Below are positions 3 through 6,524 of a stretch of DNA of 6,558 bases, piece after piece (position 1 is the stretch's first letter; each line of letters opens with the position of its first letter). Made by a program: the position numbers and the translations under genes. Below the pieces are notes generated by a model. It searched no databases. It was not told where the DNA came from and was given only the letters and a program-made list of their open reading frames with translations. Where the stretch lies: contig JAFNAH010000078.1 of assembly GCA_017860075.1 (NCBI GenBank), positions 1 to 6,558 on the forward strand, given 5' to 3'. The stretch is from Acidobacteriota bacterium. GTDB taxonomy: Bacteria; Acidobacteriota; UBA6911.

Positions 3-869
3 GTGCCTTTCGGGACCATACGGGTTGGTGTGCCGGCTGAGTTCTTTATTGAGAAATTCAGTGACATCGCGGCGTTCAAGAAGGGCAAGGAGGTGCTGCA
101 GATAGGCAAGTTTCATTCACCTCCCCGGCTTGAGGACCTCGACTCGTTGACGTTGGGGCCGGATGAGGTTGAGACCCTCAGGCGATGCCGTGTCGGGAGT
201 TGCGGTCTGAAGATGACCGCGGAGATGATCTCCCGGCTTCAGAGGGAAGTGAACTGGTCCGCACCGGACTGGCAGCGGCTGGCCATGATTGCCTATCGAC
301 GGCTTCTGTTCGATTACGTAAATGCCTACCTCCAGAAAGGACCCTCTGCGCTGGCTGTTTACCAGGACAAGCCGGAGCCTCTCCGCCTGGCTGATGAGCT
401 GAGGTCGATAGTCAAGGCCTCGCCCTACCTCGAGCAGTACCTTCCCGAACTGAACCATCACCTGGTTTCATTTCCCGACAGGCGGGTGCCTGACAGCGAG
501 CATTTCCTTTACTGGTCCCAGGAAAAATTCGGATTCAAACCGGTGGTGAGCGTGACCGACGTCAGTATCTGCCGCGTCGTGCGGGGCGACCAGATATCCT
601 ACGTGGTCGCCTCGATGCAGATCTACGCGGATCACTACTTCACAGGCTCTCTGGGTCTGGCGGCGTTTGTCGACAAGAACCGCGGGCGCCCGGGCTCCGA
701 TACATACCTGATATACCTGAACCGGACTCGGGTGGACCTGCTGCAGGGAGCTTTCAGCGGCTTGAAGCGTTTCTTCATCAGGCGGCGGTTGTTGGATGGA
801 ATGGAGAAGTACCTCCGGCTGGTAAAGCAGCGGCTCGAGGCCGAGTACCGGTCCGGCAAACGGGCATAG
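3..869 (+). CDS. Conserved-looking hypothetical protein, probably 5'-truncated by the window edge
   Basis: I do not recognise a named family. The frame is open from the first base, and the GTG at position 3 has no visible upstream context, so the true start probably lies outside the window; 288 residues are readable. No long hydrophobic segment is seen in this part. A CX4C pair lies at residues 62 and 67 (CRVGSC). Around residues 86-112 is a segment rich in Arg, Tyr and Leu that looks helical. The C-terminal half alternates hydrophobic and polar residues (about 180-245, with aromatic-rich stretches such as FLYWSQEKFGF near 168), suggesting a beta-rich globular domain, and ends in a basic amphipathic helix (FFIRRRLLDGMEKYLRLV, about 260-277). 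It is on the opposite strand from the peptide-export operon and converges on it, so I see no reason to assign it to that system. The reading frame is well supported; the function is unknown. Confidence 0.75.
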   Translation: MPFGTIRVGVPAEFFIEKFSDIAAFKKGKEVLQIGKFHSPPRLEDLDSLTLGPDEVETLRRCRVGSCGLKMTAEMISRLQREVNWSAPDWQRLAMIAYRRLLFDYVNAYLQKGPSALAVYQDKPEPLRLADELRSIVKASPYLEQYLPELNHHLVSFPDRRVPDSEHFLYWSQEKFGFKPVVSVTDVSICRVVRGDQISYVVASMQIYADHYFTGSLGLAAFVDKNRGRPGSDTYLIYLNRTRVDLLQGAFSGLKRFFIRRRLLDGMEKYLRLVKQRLEAEYRSGKRA

Positions 870-872
870 GAA

Positions 873-1025
873 TCACACCGCCAGACACGCGACGAACATC
901 ACCGCTGCAAGGATCAGCAGGACACTCAAGCCAAGAAGGATCGCGTGCAGCCACCACGGCGGGCCGGCCGGCATTCCTTCCGCCGTCTCCGTCAGACCGG
1001 GTATTTCACAGTCGGGCCGGGTCAT
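873..1025 (-). CDS. Small single-helix membrane protein, candidate immunity peptide or exporter accessory
   Basis: This is a 50-residue ORF whose ATG (1025-1023) overlaps the TGA of the upstream exporter gene as ATGA. It has no Shine-Dalgarno site of its own, so translation is probably coupled to the exporter. The first 24 residues are polar and net acidic (D5, E7, E13, E16 against R3). After GPPWW (21-25) and H27 comes an uninterrupted hydrophobic helix of about 20-22 residues reaching the C-terminus (AILLGLSVLLILAAV and following), with a Cys at 47. The topology fits an inner-membrane protein with one helix. A start further upstream is possible only at TTG (1076) and would overlap the exporter more deeply, so ATG 1025 is preferred. 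I infer an immunity protein or small exporter partner from its place as last gene of a bacteriocin-type operon; no sequence family is recognised. It could also be a chance ORF, but the ATGA overlap and clean helix argue against that. Confidence 0.62.
   Translation of the reverse strand: MTRPDCEIPGLTETAEGMPAGPPWWLHAILLGLSVLLILAAVMFVACLAV
1022..1025 (-). other. ATGA stop/start overlap
   Basis: The exporter TGA (1024-1022) and the ATG of the 50-aa membrane protein (1025-1023) share three bases. This arrangement normally gives termination-reinitiation coupling, so the small protein would be made in proportion to the exporter. Confidence 0.7.
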
Positions 1026-3223
1026 ATCGTCAATGCGGCGCGGTGGCTCATCGTGTCGACAGTGTTGGCGGCGCAATCAGGAGCGGATTGCCACAGGCGC
1101 CAGTAAGAACCATGGGCGTCGAGCAGTTCCTCGTGGCTGCCCTGCTCCAGGATCCGGCCCTCGCGGAGCACCGCTATCCGGTCCGCATGGCTTGCGACGG
1201 CCAAACGGTGCCCGATCAGGATGATAGTCTTGCGCTGCTTCAGGCTCTGCAGCAGTCTCAGGATGTGCCGCTCGGCATCCGGGTCGAGATGGCTTGTGGC
1301 TTCATCAAGGACCAGGATCGGTGGATCTGAAACAAGCGCGCGTGCGATCGCCAGGCGCTGCCGCTGGCCGGAGCTGAGCGCCAGACCCCGCTCGCCGACC
1401 CTTGTGCCCAGGCACTGCGGCAGTCGTGAGACGAATTCCTCGAGCCCCACCGCACGAACGGCCCGGACCGCTGCCTCCATTTCACCTCGATGATCTCCGG
1501 GCATCAGGTTTTCCTCGATTGTGCCGCTGAAGAAGAAGGCATCCTGGTCCACATAGCCGATTTGCGAACGCAACGAGTCAAGGTCGAACTCGCGCAGGTC
1601 ATGTCCGTCTATCCTTATCTGTCCGGCCTGGGGGTCATAGAACCTCATCAGCAGCCTGGCGAGCGTGGATTTCCCGCTGCCGCTCTCTCCTACGATGGCA
1701 AGGAGCGAATGGGGTGGAATGGAAAGCGTGATCTCGCGGAGGACCGGCTCGCGCGTTCCATAGCGGAATGCGACCTTCTGGAGGTCGATTCTTCCCGTGA
1801 TACCAGAGGTGGGAACGGGGTTGCCCCGGTCTTCCGCAGACTCAGGTCGAAGATCCAGGATGTCATACAGGCGCTCGGCCGCGATCCACGCATCCTGAAT
1901 TTGCTGATTCAGATCCGCGAGCCGGTTCAAAGGCTGCAACATGTAGAGGAGAACGGAATAGCAGGCAACCATCTGGCCGGGCGTCAACTTGCCTCCCAGC
2001 ACCAGCCAGCCGGCGTTCCACAGCAGGGCGACGAGGGCGAGCGACGTCACGATTTCGCCCGCCGAACCGGAAGCCACTCCCCATAGTGCTGCACCAAATG
2101 TCTCCCGCAGAAGACGCACGAGGGCGGCCTCTGCCTTCTGCCCCTCCTTCTTCTCGGTTCTGAAGGCCTTGATCGTGGCGATCCCGGCAATGCTCTCCAC
2201 CAGGCGGGATTGCAGTTCTGCCGCCAGTTCCAGGGCCGATCGCTGTGCGCGCCTCAGCGGGCGGCTCGCCACGAAGAGTACCGATGCCATCACGGGCACA
2301 GCCAGCAGGACCGACCAGGCGAGCCTGCTGTTGAAGCAGAGCAGGACGGTGAACCCGGCAGCCATTGTGGCGGCATCGATCAGCAGAGTCAGTGTCGAGC
2401 TGCAGATCATCATGCGGACCTTGACCGCGTCAGCGAGCCGCGAAAGGATTTCCCCGCTTGCTCGAGTTTCGAAGAACTCCAGCGGCATGGCAAGCACGCG
2501 GCGATAATAGGTGAGCATGAGAGAAAGGTCCACAGCGCGGCTCACATATGCGGACAGTGCGCCGCGGACTGCACCAAAAGCAGCTCGGATCAGGACCAGG
2601 ATCAGAAGTCCCGCGCTCAGCCAGCGAAATAGCCACTCGTCTCGAGTGACGAGTACCCGGTCCAGGAGCACTCGCAGGTAGAGGCTCGTTCCCAGGCCGA
2701 GCAGGGTGAGAAACACGGTTGCCAGGAAAGTCTCGAAGAGCAGGAGGCGGTTTTTGCTTAGGAGGAGGAACAACCCGCGGCGCCTGCCGGAACATGCATT
2801 GCCTCTTTGAAAGGTCGGAGCCGGAACCAGCAGGATGAGGACTCCGCTCCAGATAGTCCTGAACCGGTTGAGGGGATGACGGACGATTCCCCGGGCGGGA
2901 TCGGCGACCGTTACAATGCCGGCTGCAACCCGGAGGATCGTGACATAGTGCAGCAGCCCTGCCTGAGTTGTATGGGCGATGCAGGGCAAGGGAACCTGTG
3001 CGAGCGCTTCCACGCTCCCCCGGACCCCGCGTGCCTCAAACCCCAGCCTTTGAGCGGCCTCCACGAGGCCCAACACATTTGTCCCGCGCCTGTCCGTGCC
3101 TGCGTATTGACGAATCAGGGCGATCGGGATCTTGAGGCCGTGGACACGCGCCACCGTCGCAAGGCAGGCCGCCCCGCAGTCAGTGAGGTCGGTCTGCCGG
3201 ACACATACGTAGGGCTTTATCAT
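1022..3223 (-). CDS. Peptidase C39 domain-containing ABC transporter (peptide leader protease and exporter)
   Basis: This 733-residue protein has the full architecture of a peptidase-containing ABC transporter, which cuts double-glycine leaders and exports the core peptide. The N-terminal C39 peptidase (about 8-135) carries the catalytic set: Cys16 in TDCGAAC with the usual preceding Gln (Q10), His92 in LLHYVTIL, and Asp108 in VADPARG. A six-helix exporter core follows, with hydrophobic segments near 160-183, 198-219, 276-297, 301-320, 391-411 and 418-432. The ATPase has Walker A GESGSGKST (512-520), Q-loop Gln560, signature LSSGQ (616-620), Walker B ILVLDEAT (636-643) and H-loop His672. The signature is LSSGQ rather than LSGGQ, a mild variant. 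I chose ATG 3223 because it begins a typical C39 N-terminus (MIKPYVCVRQ) 13 bases after the ATPase stop; the longer frame from 3295 would add 24 unrelated residues and overlap the ATPase gene. No good Shine-Dalgarno precedes it. All catalytic residues are intact, so it is probably functional. Its substrates are most likely the two precursors in the same operon. Confidence 0.95.
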   Translation of the reverse strand: MIKPYVCVRQTDLTDCGAACLATVARVHGLKIPIALIRQYAGTDRRGTNVLGLVEAAQRLGFEARGVRGSVEALAQVPLPCIAHTTQAGLLHYVTILRVAAGIVTVADPARGIVRHPLNRFRTIWSGVLILLVPAPTFQRGNACSGRRRGLFLLLSKNRLLLFETFLATVFLTLLGLGTSLYLRVLLDRVLVTRDEWLFRWLSAGLLILVLIRAAFGAVRGALSAYVSRAVDLSLMLTYYRRVLAMPLEFFETRASGEILSRLADAVKVRMMICSSTLTLLIDAATMAAGFTVLLCFNSRLAWSVLLAVPVMASVLFVASRPLRRAQRSALELAAELQSRLVESIAGIATIKAFRTEKKEGQKAEAALVRLLRETFGAALWGVASGSAGEIVTSLALVALLWNAGWLVLGGKLTPGQMVACYSVLLYMLQPLNRLADLNQQIQDAWIAAERLYDILDLRPESAEDRGNPVPTSGITGRIDLQKVAFRYGTREPVLREITLSIPPHSLLAIVGESGSGKSTLARLLMRFYDPQAGQIRIDGHDLREFDLDSLRSQIGYVDQDAFFFSGTIEENLMPGDHRGEMEAAVRAVRAVGLEEFVSRLPQCLGTRVGERGLALSSGQRQRLAIARALVSDPPILVLDEATSHLDPDAERHILRLLQSLKQRKTIILIGHRLAVASHADRIAVLREGRILEQGSHEELLDAHGSYWRLWQSAPDCAANTVDTMSHRAALTI

Positions 3224-3236
3224 TTCGGGATAACGG

Positions 3237-4025
3237 TCACAGCCATTCGAGTCGTGTGCCGTGCTCTCCGACAAGCGCCAGATAAAGAGCTTCAAGAGAA
3301 TGGAACCTTTGCCCGTGCGATGCCAACTCTATGCCTGCTGCCAGGTGGCTCAGGCTGCCGTGCCAGACAAGCCTGCCCGCCTTGATGATGGCGACCTCGT
3401 CGCAAAGCCGTTCGACCGTTTCCAGCGCATGCGAAGTCAGGAATACCGTACGTGCGGTCGCTGCGAACTGCCGGAGCCATGTCTTGAGCATGGCAGCGGA
3501 TGCAGGATCGAGGTCTGCAAAAGGCTCATCCAACAGGAGAAGGTCGGGCCTGTGGATTATTGCCGCTGCAAATGCCACCTTTCTCCTCATACCGCTGCTG
3601 TATTCCGCGAGCGGGCGCCTAAGGGCGCTCGACAGGTCGAGCACCTCGATCAGTTCGTCCACTCTCCGGCGAATCGTCGCGCGGTCGAGTCCGTACATGC
3701 GCGCGTTGAAGGTGAGAAACTCCCCGGCCGTGAGGTGATCGAACAGCGCGAGCCTTTCCGGCATAACACCGATGCGCCTCTTCAGCTCGACGGAGTCGCC
3801 GGTGAACTGCTCGCCCAGCAGTCTTATGGTGCCCGTGGTCGGTTCAATCAAGCCACTCAGGCACCCGATGGTTGTGCTCTTGCCGGCGCCATTGGGGCCG
3901 AGGAAAGCCACGAGACGGTTCCTTGGAACCTCCAGGCACAGGTCGGCAACCGCGGTGACGGTGGCGTATCTTTTCGTCAAGTGCTCGATAGCGAATGCAG
4001 GGTCGCGGTCAGATTCGTCGGCCAC
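3237..4025 (-). CDS. ABC transporter ATP-binding protein (ABC-2 type exporter ATPase)
   Basis: This 262-residue stand-alone nucleotide-binding subunit probably powers the permease encoded just upstream. Visible motifs are Walker [10 protein letters not shown] (43-51), the Q-loop region GVMPE with Glu90 where Gln is commonest, signature EYSSGMRRK (141-149), Walker B LLLLDEPF (162-169) with catalytic Glu167, D-loop around 171-174, and switch His199 in TSHALE. The YSxGM signature and GVMPE form are usual in drug- or antibiotic-efflux and Nat/Ccm-like ATPases that pair with ABC-2 permeases. The start is GTG at 4025-4023, preceded by GAGGAAGAAG, which contains a reasonable ribosome binding site. 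The gene lies 62 bases after the permease stop and 13 bases before the C39 exporter, so it is within one operon. In bacteriocin loci such ATPase/permease pairs often give producer self-protection; that role here is inference. Confidence 0.93.
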
Positions 4026-4087: not shown

Positions 4088-5743
4088 TCAGGCGCGATCC
4101 TCTCCGGACACCACACCCGTCAGCAGATCACGCCGGGCGGTCATGGCTCTCGAAACGAGTCTGAATGAAATCAGGTACAGTGAAGCACACACAACCGGCA
4201 CAACGGTGAAGCCCCACCAGGATGCCAGCAACAGCGCACAGGGGACGGATTTCTCCACGACGAAGGCTGTGGCCAGGGCGAGGGCAATCCCGAGCCCGAT
4301 CCCCAGCGTGGCGCCGAATGAGAGTTCGTTCCCCACGACCCCTCGGAAGTTGCTCTTCCGCGGATATGCGACGGAAGTCCACAGGCCGAGGGCGTTGAAG
4401 AAGAAGAGCCCTGCGGCAGCACTGGAGCCAAGGATAACCACAGCGCGGGCATCCGCCGGGAATCCCGCCATGAGCGGCACGCCCGCGATCGCAACCAGGC
4501 CGAGCGCGCCGCCCGATAGCAACGAGGCAACGCTCGCCGCCCGCAAGGCAGAAACTGCGGGTATGGGGAGAAGCCAGTAACGACGCACACCGTCGCCGTC
4601 ATAGCCGAACTGGTTCAGCGTGATTGAAGCGGTTGCCAGGATCGCAGACAGAAACATGAGCGCCGCGGTCTCGAGGAAGGCCATGTAGGGACCGCCTCCT
4701 CTACTCATGAAGCGCGGCAGCAGCAGTGCCAGGGGGACTGTGCCTGCGAAACTGAACCGGACGCGATCACAGCGCAGGTGATAGCGCAGTGCCTTGCCGA
4801 CGAGCGGCCCGAAGGAGCCGCTGAAGAGACCTTCCATCCTGTCGCACAGGATACCGAAGGCATCCGAGACTGCAGTCACGGGCGTGTCGGAGAGCGCGCG
4901 ACGTTCGGCGCAGACAAGCGCTGAGGCCAGGAAGCCGGCCCAGAGCAGAAGCGTCGTGACGTCCGGCAGCGCTGATGGAGAATCGAGCCCCCCGAGAAGG
5001 GAAGCCGCAGCCCCCGGCGGCAGCAGCCTCAGCACCAGGTCCGCCTCGCGCCATCCGGAGGCGTTCGATGGGTCGGCCCCTGACACGGCCAGGAGTCCGG
5101 CAGCCACGAACAGGAGGAACGCTGTGGCACCCAGGATCGTCCCCCCACCGCGGCGGGACAAGATCAGATCCGCAACCGAGAGCAGCACCACTGAGGAGAG
5201 GTAGCAGATGCCGATGAAAAGGAGAGCGACCGGCACCGTCAGCAGCGCTCTGTATGGCCCGGCCGCACTGTATCCCGCGGCCACCCAGATGGTTGAGACG
5301 GCAAGGAAGAGCCAGACCGGATCGAGTAGTCCGGAAACATGCCTCAAGCTTAACCGGCCCATGCGCGTCAACGGGTAGCGCCTCAGGACGGCATCCATGG
5401 AAGATTGCCTTGCCCCTCTCCCCAGCACCAGGTTGAGACTGGCACCGAACCCCCAGATCCCGGAGAGTATCCACCGGGCAGTCGCCTCGTCGCGCTCCCG
5501 TACCTTGGAGAGTGCAGCGGTCTCGGATCCGGCGAGGATCAGCAGCAGAAACAGCGACCCGCCGAGGACATACCCGGATGCGAAGAGAGCTCTCCTGCCG
5601 GTGCTGGTTCGGGCCTGCGCCCAAAGCAATAGCTGGCGCAGGCGGATAAGGGTCCAAAGCATCTGAAGTATCGGGGATCCGCCCGGATTTCCGGCCCTGT
5701 TGTGGAACCGGGATGCCCCGCGTTCATTCCCTGTCGATGACAT
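4088..5743 (-). CDS. Polytopic membrane protein, probable ABC-2-like transporter permease
   Basis: This protein is about 551 residues long with some 12 hydrophobic segments, near residues 51-71, 91-109, 142-160, 167-193, 201-221, 261-278, 331-346, 355-376, 400-427, 433-460, 474-496 and 502-528. It has no ATPase motifs of its own, and the next gene encodes a matching ATPase, so I read it as the membrane subunit of an ABC exporter. The motif LNQFGYDGDGVRRYWLLP (376-393), between two helices and followed by a basic residue-bearing loop, resembles the conserved cytoplasmic loop I associate with large ABC-2-type permeases. Start choice is uncertain. ATG 5743 has GGTGA five bases upstream and gives a 27-residue polar extension; ATG 5662 (MLWTLIRLRQ) starts directly at the conserved-looking region but lacks a Shine-Dalgarno; a GTG at 5752 is also in frame. 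The role as immunity pump or second exporter is inferred from context. Confidence 0.85.
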   Translation of the reverse strand: MSSTGNERGASRFHNRAGNPGGSPILQMLWTLIRLRQLLLWAQARTSTGRRALFASGYVLGGSLFLLLILAGSETAALSKVRERDEATARWILSGIWGFGASLNLVLGRGARQSSMDAVLRRYPLTRMGRLSLRHVSGLLDPVWLFLAVSTIWVAAGYSAAGPYRALLTVPVALLFIGICYLSSVVLLSVADLILSRRGGGTILGATAFLLFVAAGLLAVSGADPSNASGWREADLVLRLLPPGAAASLLGGLDSPSALPDVTTLLLWAGFLASALVCAERRALSDTPVTAVSDAFGILCDRMEGLFSGSFGPLVGKALRYHLRCDRVRFSFAGTVPLALLLPRFMSRGGGPYMAFLETAALMFLSAILATASITLNQFGYDGDGVRRYWLLPIPAVSALRAASVASLLSGGALGLVAIAGVPLMAGFPADARAVVILGSSAAAGLFFFNALGLWTSVAYPRKSNFRGVVGNELSFGATLGIGLGIALALATAFVVEKSVPCALLLASWWGFTVVPVVCASLYLISFRLVSRAMTARRDLLTGVVSGEDRA

Positions 5744-5856
5744 GCAGGTCACCCGAAATGCCGCCCGTTGGACTCATTCCTGCGGCGCTCTGGATCATTT
5801 CCACTCGCTGTGTCAACGTGTGCCCGATTTGCCCGCTGCGGCAGGAGCGGAGAATG

Positions 5857-5996: not shown

Positions 5997-6179
5997 CTAT
6001 GGCTGAAAACAGCCGACGTTGTAGGCGGCAATCATGCCGCCCGCGACTGCCCACCATTGCCCGGCGAGAAACGCGGCCGCGGTCAGCCCTCCGAGCATAG
6101 CGCACGTGTATCGTTCCACCCCTCCTTCAATGCTGAGCATTTCCTGTGCGGTCAAGCCTGCGAGAACTTCTCCTTCCAT
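5997..6179 (-). CDS. Double-glycine leader peptide B, bacteriocin-like precursor (60 aa)
   Basis: This is a precursor peptide with a 20-residue leader, MEGEVLAGLTAQEMLSIEGG, and a 40-residue core. The leader has the bacteriocin/ComC-type pattern: hydrophobic residues spaced before the cut (L9, M14, I17), acidic residues between, and GG at -2/-1. The core begins VERYTC, contains Gly/Ala-rich hydrophobic stretches (LGGLTAAAFLAG, then QWW, then AVAGGMIAAYN) and ends VGCFQP. Only E2 and R3 are charged, and Cys6 and Cys37 are the only cysteines. ATG 6179 is chosen because AAAGGAG lies eight bases upstream (6194-6188); an in-frame ATG at 6200 and a TTG at 6275 have no ribosome binding site and would spoil the leader. 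The C39 exporter downstream is the expected processing enzyme. The product is probably a membrane-active antimicrobial; a signalling peptide is possible. I do not recognise the core family. Confidence 0.85.
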   Translation of the reverse strand: MEGEVLAGLTAQEMLSIEGGVERYTCAMLGGLTAAAFLAGQWWAVAGGMIAAYNVGCFQP

Positions 6180-6194
6180 TTCACCATCTCCTTT
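6180..6194 (-). promoter_or_regulatory. Ribosome binding site that fixes the precursor B start
   Basis: The minus strand reads AAAGGAGATGGTGAA immediately before ATG 6179. AAAGGAG (6194-6188) is eight bases from the start. The alternative in-frame ATG at 6200 has no such site, so the 60-aa precursor with a leader of the same length as its paralogue is preferred. Confidence 0.75.
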
Positions 6195-6279
6195 CGTCAT
6201 CAATTCCCGTGTTTCCTGGCTGATGCCTGGCCTGTGCGGGCGCCCTCCTGCTGTGAGGCTCAATACCGAGGGCAAGGAC

Positions 6280-6319
6280 GAGGGCTGCCCCGGATCGAAG
6301 AACGACGATTCCGGCCCTC
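6280..6319 (-). repeat. Imperfect stem-loop between the two precursor genes
   Basis: The outer arms GAGGGC and GCCCTC are perfect complements. Inside them CGGA-TCG pairs with CGA-TCCG with a single bulged base, around an eight-base loop; one side has an extra five bases (GGGCA on the minus strand). No T-run follows, so it is not a standard terminator. It lies in the 174-base gap (6180-6353) between precursors A and B, which otherwise holds only the precursor B ribosome binding site. It could adjust mRNA stability or read-through. Confidence 0.4.
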
Positions 6320-6353
6320 TGTGTTCGTGGTTTGGAGTGGCACCCGGCCTGCC

Positions 6354-6524
6354 CTAGCAGTAGTTGTAGATGAAAAAGAGACCCGCGGTGGCGGCCATGG
6401 CGTTCATGGATGCGAATCCGAGAACGGTCATAACTCCGCCCCCCCAGCAGTAGAATTGGGATGTTCCGCCGGAGAGCGCCTGCATCTCTTCAAACGTGAG
6501 GTTGTCGAGAACGGTATCCTGCAT
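6354..6524 (-). CDS. Double-glycine leader peptide A, bacteriocin-like precursor (56 aa)
   Basis: I found this short gene by translating the right end directly. Its 20-residue leader is MQDTVLDNLTFEEMQALSGG and its core is 36 residues. The ATG at 6524 has an excellent Shine-Dalgarno (AGAGAGGAGG followed by AAAA and ATG), and the frame ends with TAG at 6356-6354. The core starts TSQFYCWGGG, continues with a hydrophobic Ala/Met/Gly-rich stretch (VLGFASMNAMAATAG) and ends LFFIYNYC, so the last residue is Cys36. It has no Asp, Glu, Lys, Arg or His at all, which is unusual for a bacteriocin. It is a paralogue of peptide B: the leaders agree at M1, V5, L6, L9, T10, E13, M14, G19 and G20, and both cores have Cys6, Phe17, Gly28 and Tyr33-Asn34. 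It is presumably cut after GG and exported by the C39 transporter in the same operon. It may act alone or jointly with peptide B. Confidence 0.85.
   Translation of the reverse strand: MQDTVLDNLTFEEMQALSGGTSQFYCWGGGVMTVLGFASMNAMAATAGLFFIYNYC

Follow-up and report, generated by a model that had tools for sequence, protein, structure and literature searches.

A candidate gallocin-A-type two-peptide bacteriocin of predicted disulfide-closed helical hairpins in an Acidobacteriota genome

Two short precursors with double-glycine (GG) leaders, encoded side by side in an Acidobacteriota contig, are best explained, in a reading that we favor with some reserve, as a class IIb two-peptide bacteriocin of the gallocin A type, the two components of which are predicted to form disulfide-closed helical hairpins. 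The kind itself, that is, two-peptide bacteriocins of low charge with two cysteines per peptide, is already known from gallocin A, ABP-118, brochocin C and thermophilin 13. New here are cores that are more conserved than their leaders, an adjacent ABC permease/ATPase pair, and a second pair of two-cysteine GG peptides in the same family. The whole stretch of DNA that was analysed (the window) is 6,558 nucleotides long, and its genes for peptide A, peptide B, permease, ATPase and C39-ABC exporter follow one another in this order on the minus strand. The features considered are listed below.

6354..6524, minus strand: precursor of peptide A, with a 20-residue GG leader and a 36-residue core that carries Cys6 and Cys36 and has no Asp, Glu, Lys, Arg or His
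5997..6179, minus strand: precursor of peptide B, with a 20-residue GG leader and a 40-residue core that carries Cys6 and Cys37 and the charged residues E2 and R3
4088..5752, minus strand: ABC permease of 554 aa with about 11 hydrophobic segments and no Pfam or NCBIfam match
3237..4025, minus strand: drrA-like ABC ATPase (PF00005, 7.9e-29; TIGR01188, 1.4e-63, 215 bits, the cut-off of 312 not being reached)
1022..3223, minus strand: C39 peptidase-ABC exporter (PCAT; PF03412, 8e-33; PF00664; PF00005)
873..1025, minus strand: possible membrane peptide of 50 aa with one C-terminal hydrophobic stretch, its ATG overlapping the exporter stop codon (ATGA)

The coordinates, GG leaders, cores, cysteines and charges of A and B given in the original prediction were re-read from the translations and found as claimed, with 0 charged residues in core A and 2 in core B of the window sequences. 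Ribosome-binding sites lie 5' of gene A (GAGGAGG) and of gene B (AAGGAG), and given these sites together with the existence of relatives, chance open reading frames were rejected as an explanation of A and B. The two leaders are clearly related by sequence, since 9 of their 20 positions are identical where 1.9 would be expected (20000 shuffles, p = 5e-5). Aligned without gaps, the cores have 8 identical residues in common compared with an expectation of 3.1 (shuffles, p = 0.008), the p value rising to 0.06 when the best-scoring one among nine offsets may be chosen. BLASTP aligned the precursors without gaps over 54 residues including the leader, with 17 identities and an E value of 2e-7 for this single comparison, and the profiles of the two families, built from leader and core, matched each other with a probability of 94 and a pairwise E value of 9e-8. 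With core-only profiles, the other core scored no higher than shuffled sequence by local profile score. Given that the leaders are related and that the cores have conserved columns in common, the two cores are probably related as well.

The exporter combines C39, membrane and ATPase domains with the Cys, His and Asp motifs of a PCAT (CGAAC at 16, HYV at 92 and DP at 108) and scored 488.6 bits against TIGR01193, under the cut-off of 523.85. Its gene begins 13 nt past the end of the ATPase gene on the same strand, and it is the sole C39 match (E <= 1e-8) in the source genome, which is 84% complete. It is predicted from its sequence to cut after GG and to export both A and B. The ATPase is the likely partner of the permease, and, judging from their position and type, the two proteins probably serve self-protection (immunity) of the producer. 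Relatives of the permease were found in 4 other genomes of the 396 searched in the phylum. At three of these loci (L019-L021) the frame beside the permease relative reads, from its first residues, as an ABC ATPase, and two pattern scans around the permease relatives at L019-L022 found no GG peptide up to 1.5 kb away. Because the permease recurs beside an ATPase with no GG peptide seen within 1.5 kb, the ABC pair looks recruited. The window's type of permease with an ABC ATPase exists, at L019-L021, outside the window locus. The 50-aa open reading frame, which had no relative in 14 other genomes of the family, is a candidate accessory or immunity peptide and, in the latter role, a rival to the permease/ATPase pair.

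No HlyD or thioredoxin protein was found among the six window open reading frames scanned, the contig ending 34 nt before gene A, and scans of Rfam and for promoters and terminators returned nothing. A 288-aa open reading frame at window positions 3-869 on the plus strand is convergent with the exporter gene and has no Pfam, NCBIfam or PHROG match. A prophage or plasmid origin was considered and rejected, as no related locus was found in viral contigs (with the permease and query A1) or in plasmids (for B or A), and as A, B, the permease and the frame at 3-869 matched no PHROG.

Relatives of the peptides were recovered from 5.8 billion proteins: a profile built jointly from 32 sequences yielded 44 protein clusters, 24 of the A type and 20 of the B type, compared with 21 and 15 clusters, respectively, in earlier single-family searches of the same proteins. 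These counts include the window's own clusters, P0019 (A) and P0004 (B), whose representatives each differ from the window by one residue over the shared part, and they also keep P0031 and P0046 despite an automatic leader/core split that is off or an absent GG, P0046 being without GG. Among genomes, convincing matches were confined to the source genome itself, both for peptide B (15 family and 396 phylum genomes) and for peptide A (38 class and 396 phylum genomes), and a related-locus search of genome contigs with queries A1 and A2 found none. Weak matches in G145, G166, G012, G314 and G179, with E values of 0.002 or weaker in frames of at least 267 residues, were set aside.

Conservation was counted in 25 A-type and 21 B-type rows, window sequences included, anchored on the first cysteine. 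That cysteine is present in 25/25 A and 21/21 B rows and the second one in 24/25 and 21/21, P0019 being the sole exception, so that the predicted conservation of Cys6 and the last cysteine was borne out among the relatives. Both lie near the N and C ends of the mature peptide (24/25 A, 21/21 B), at a spacing of 30 in 24 A rows and 31 in 21 B rows. C6, G10 and A24 occur in every row of both families, T13 in 24/25 A and 21/21 B rows, and G28 in 25/25 and 19/21. The YN motif that the original prediction had listed as shared is invariant in B (Y33-N34 in 21/21 rows) and only partly kept in A, where Y33 occurs in 21 of the 25 rows and N34 in 14. P0019 equals window A from its start methionine on, except at the C-terminal residue, which is Phe where window A has Cys; if real, it would be a natural single-cysteine variant.

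Mean pairwise identity over the 31 residues from the first cysteine reached 85% in A and 83% in B, compared with 45% and 56% for the respective leaders, a contrast that is possibly inflated because the search favors relatives sharing five-residue words. The cores of both families are better conserved than their leaders, unlike those of diversifying bacteriocins. This far stronger conservation of the cores in both families, along with a charge near zero, would suit peptides that leave through the C39 transporter as a signal or as a surface or biofilm component of the producer rather than as a toxin, and a cyanobacterium is said to use GG peptides for biofilm (PMC4997328). However, a signal or surface role sits poorly with two different cores of predicted two-helix fold, with an adjacent ABC permease/ATPase and with traits that closely match those of gallocin A, and we consider it unlikely.

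A role as partners in one bacteriocin is favored by the genomic pairing of A and B. The two GG-leader precursors lie side by side in the window, and their co-occurrence recurs among the relatives: in six cases the longest contigs of an A-type and a B-type cluster are of equal size (39496, 10334, 2913, 1853, 28879 and 1944), and one of these cases, P0026/P0045, carries the neighboring tags VE398_00415/VE398_00410 in an Acidobacteriota MAG. The proposal of a two-component pair, made earlier alongside that of a redundant one, is supported by these six cases. If A and B were instead two separate, redundant single-peptide bacteriocins, each active alone, one could understand why each has a complete leader, ribosome-binding site and cysteine pair, and why some long contigs list A only (A-type contigs of 405005, 139910, 40203 and 12366 had no equal-sized B-type match). 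The recurrence of A with B and the neighboring tags count against such independence, which we hold to be improbable.

AlphaFold models of both precursors consist of two helices joined by a short turn near residue 40. The model of A (22 sequences) has helices at 23-38 and 42-55, with a mean pLDDT of 72.7 and a pTM of 0.47, and that of B (16 sequences) has helices at 20-39 and 42-55, with a mean pLDDT of 77.1 (93 in 31-50) and a pTM of 0.53. In precursor numbering, cysteines 26 and 56/57 are about equidistant from the turn in these models; hairpin packing of the helices would therefore bring the two cysteines together at the open end. Searching the PDB by sequence with A and B gave nothing credible, and a fold search with the B model found none in the PDB and no E value below 3 in a viral library.

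Either a disulfide from Cys6 to the C-terminal cysteine or a link between the peptides had been foreseen in the original prediction. The former is supported, as a prediction, by the near-invariant cysteines, the two-helix models and the precedent of gallocin A, and such an intramolecular bond fits better than the latter. On the strength of the models, A and B are predicted to be helical hairpins, each probably closed by an intramolecular disulfide. Two cysteines in each peptide would also allow them to serve modification or an inter-peptide disulfide between A and B, and 7 of 22 A-type rows matched TIGR04149 (rSAM-modified) weakly, the best at 0.015. By contrast, no modifying enzyme was found among the six open reading frames scanned, both cysteines of a peptide are placed about equally far from the turn by the models, and the bond in gallocin A is intramolecular; a modified or heterodimeric form appears very improbable. 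The identification of A and B as lantibiotic or rSAM peptides was rejected on the same absence of a modifying enzyme among the scanned frames and on the weakness of the TIGR04149 matches.

Gallocin A of Streptococcus gallolyticus (GllA1/GllA2) is described, in excerpts of its report, as a two-peptide bacteriocin of low charge, each peptide of which has two cysteines (PMC10100652). Its disulfides were found by LC-MS, reducing agents abolish its activity, and its peptides were modelled as hairpins; the same excerpts propose it as the founder of a class IIb subtype with disulfide hairpins and name ABP-118, brochocin C and thermophilin 13 as modelled relatives with similar traits (PMC10100652). 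Like gallocin A, the window has a pair of GG-leader peptides, each with two cysteines, little charge and a predicted two-helix hairpin form, and ABC export with cleavage after GG, the last being predicted in the window. It differs from gallocin A, which has a Gram-positive host and peptides of 42 and 60 aa, and the likeness considered is one of traits. The gallocin locus, as excerpted, encodes the thioredoxin-like BlpT and GIP, a small immunity peptide for which a hairpin was modelled (PMC10100652), whereas the window has an ABC permease/ATPase. A and B would belong with the gallocin A group by trait rather than by established descent. The earlier statement that the cores could not be placed in a described family stands for their sequences, which have no Pfam match, and not for their kind, for which a class IIb subgroup is described in the excerpted source (PMC10100652).

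At the level of sequence, four cores scanned alone against Pfam gave no match, and the core sequences matched no model in any library scanned. Whole precursors behaved differently between families. The lactobin A/cerein 7B model (TIGR03949) and Bacteriocin_IIc (PF10439) weakly matched many B-type rows over leader and core and few A-type rows, with curated cut-offs not reached wherever a score was shown. At E <= 0.1, TIGR03949 matched 13/16 B-type rows (best E 7.9e-5) and 3/22 A-type rows, and PF10439 matched 6/16 and 2/22, all weakly. Window B scored 18.4 bits against TIGR03949 (cut-off 21.5) with no match for window A, and neither window peptide matched PF10439. The best B-type row against PF10439, P0013, which bears a precomputed label for that family, scored 25.7 bits and did not reach the gathering cut-off of 27.1; its leader alone scored 16.5 bits and its core alone nothing. 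The similarity behind these weak matches sits largely in the leader.

ABP-118 (Ligilactobacillus salivarius UCC118, pMP118) resembles the window in its PCAT and in its pair of GG peptides, both of which have two cysteines, and its beta peptide has W-AVAGG in common with B; a thioredoxin-family gene is present in the ABP-118 stretch. The ABP-118 peptides reach PF10439 at 51.8 and 58 bits, but the window peptides do not, and the core of ABP-118 beta alone scores 22.4 bits against this model where that of P0013 scores nothing. The B-core profile gave the ABP-118 beta core 4.2 bits, a score equalled in 21 of 2000 shuffles, and no signal was obtained with this profile against ABP-118 alpha or with the A-core profile against alpha and beta.

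Brochocin C and thermophilin 13 have Gram-positive producers, and all the described disulfide-hairpin pairs that we found come from Gram-positive bacteria; the window pair comes from Acidobacteriota. Among the matches listed from the open-licence literature, no class IIb bacteriocin from Acidobacteriota was found. Moraxella catarrhalis McbC and gonococcal NapABC, compared by description only, are like the window in their GG leaders, dedicated secretion genes and Gram-negative hosts (excerpts of PMC2761928 and PMC11798529). McbC is described there as a 101-residue precursor (PMC2761928) and the Naps as cationic (PMC11798529), and these excerpts mention no cysteines, hence no two-cysteine pair (PMC2761928, PMC11798529).

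Killing, disulfides and immunity are what we infer for A and B, and a gallocin-A-type system would operate as follows. The C39-ABC exporter would cut each precursor after GG and export the core; outside the cytoplasm, Cys6 would join the C-terminal cysteine within each peptide and close the open end of the two-helix hairpin. The nearly uncharged hairpins could then pack via their small-residue faces (A24xxxG28 in both), and A and B together would insert into and permeabilise the membranes of neighboring cells, where we infer pore formation. The permease/ATPase pair would protect the producer by removing the peptides from its membrane. A bolder possibility, which we advance tentatively and think rather doubtful, is that the disulfide-hairpin two-peptide membrane agents of this Gram-negative phylum form a separate branch, convergent or very ancient, with cores frozen by selection, leaders drifting and an ABC pair replacing the small immunity protein; they would act on an invariant target, whether a lipid or a universal receptor, or on kin of the producer. 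As excerpted, the basis of the disulfide-hairpin subtype is gallocin A together with three relatives that were modelled (PMC10100652); if the present reading is true, this class IIb kind extends to Acidobacteriota. The alignments of 25 and 21 core sequences supply conservation data, and the roles of the cysteines and of the small-residue faces become directly testable.

A strict scan for GG pairs covered 128 loci including the window (1.29 Mb, overlaps counted), among them 80 regions around C39 matches, drawn from 67 genomes of the phylum out of 130 that have a C39 match. It found the window pair and one other pair, L057, and no match in the reversed sequences; its filters were chosen with A, B and the two L057 peptides already known. 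On the ABP-118 stretch, used as a control, it found alpha and missed beta; other pairs may therefore have been missed. The position of the second pair is as follows.

G010:C156:8000-18055, 1372-8040, minus strand: L057 locus, from another genus of the same family

L057 comprises a PCAT, a 219-aa membrane protein, a thioredoxin-like protein (CxxC motif; Pfam E value 0.0023, below the cut-off), two GG peptides and an ABC permease/ATPase. As in the window, a PCAT, two two-cysteine GG peptides and an ABC permease with its ATPase lie on one strand, and the L057 PCAT is 29% identical to the window exporter. The L057 permease could not be aligned with that of the window by BLASTP, and a thioredoxin-like gene is present in L057. 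This permease was found in 1 of 317 phylum genomes, G010 itself. The two GG genes overlap, and their core cysteines lie at 5 and 40 in one peptide and at 10 and 30 in the other; in peptide 1 they lie asymmetrically on the two sides of the likely turn. Judged by sequence, the L057 peptides are not alignable with the window pair beyond the two-cysteine GG pattern, and neither the A nor the B core profile recognises their cores. Weak matches of L057 peptide 2 in G001 and G006 (E 0.08 and 0.09 among 15 family genomes) were taken as chance, the frame in G001 holding stops. Another C39 exporter locus, L061, may encode an eight-cysteine GG peptide at 15092-15364 on the minus strand.
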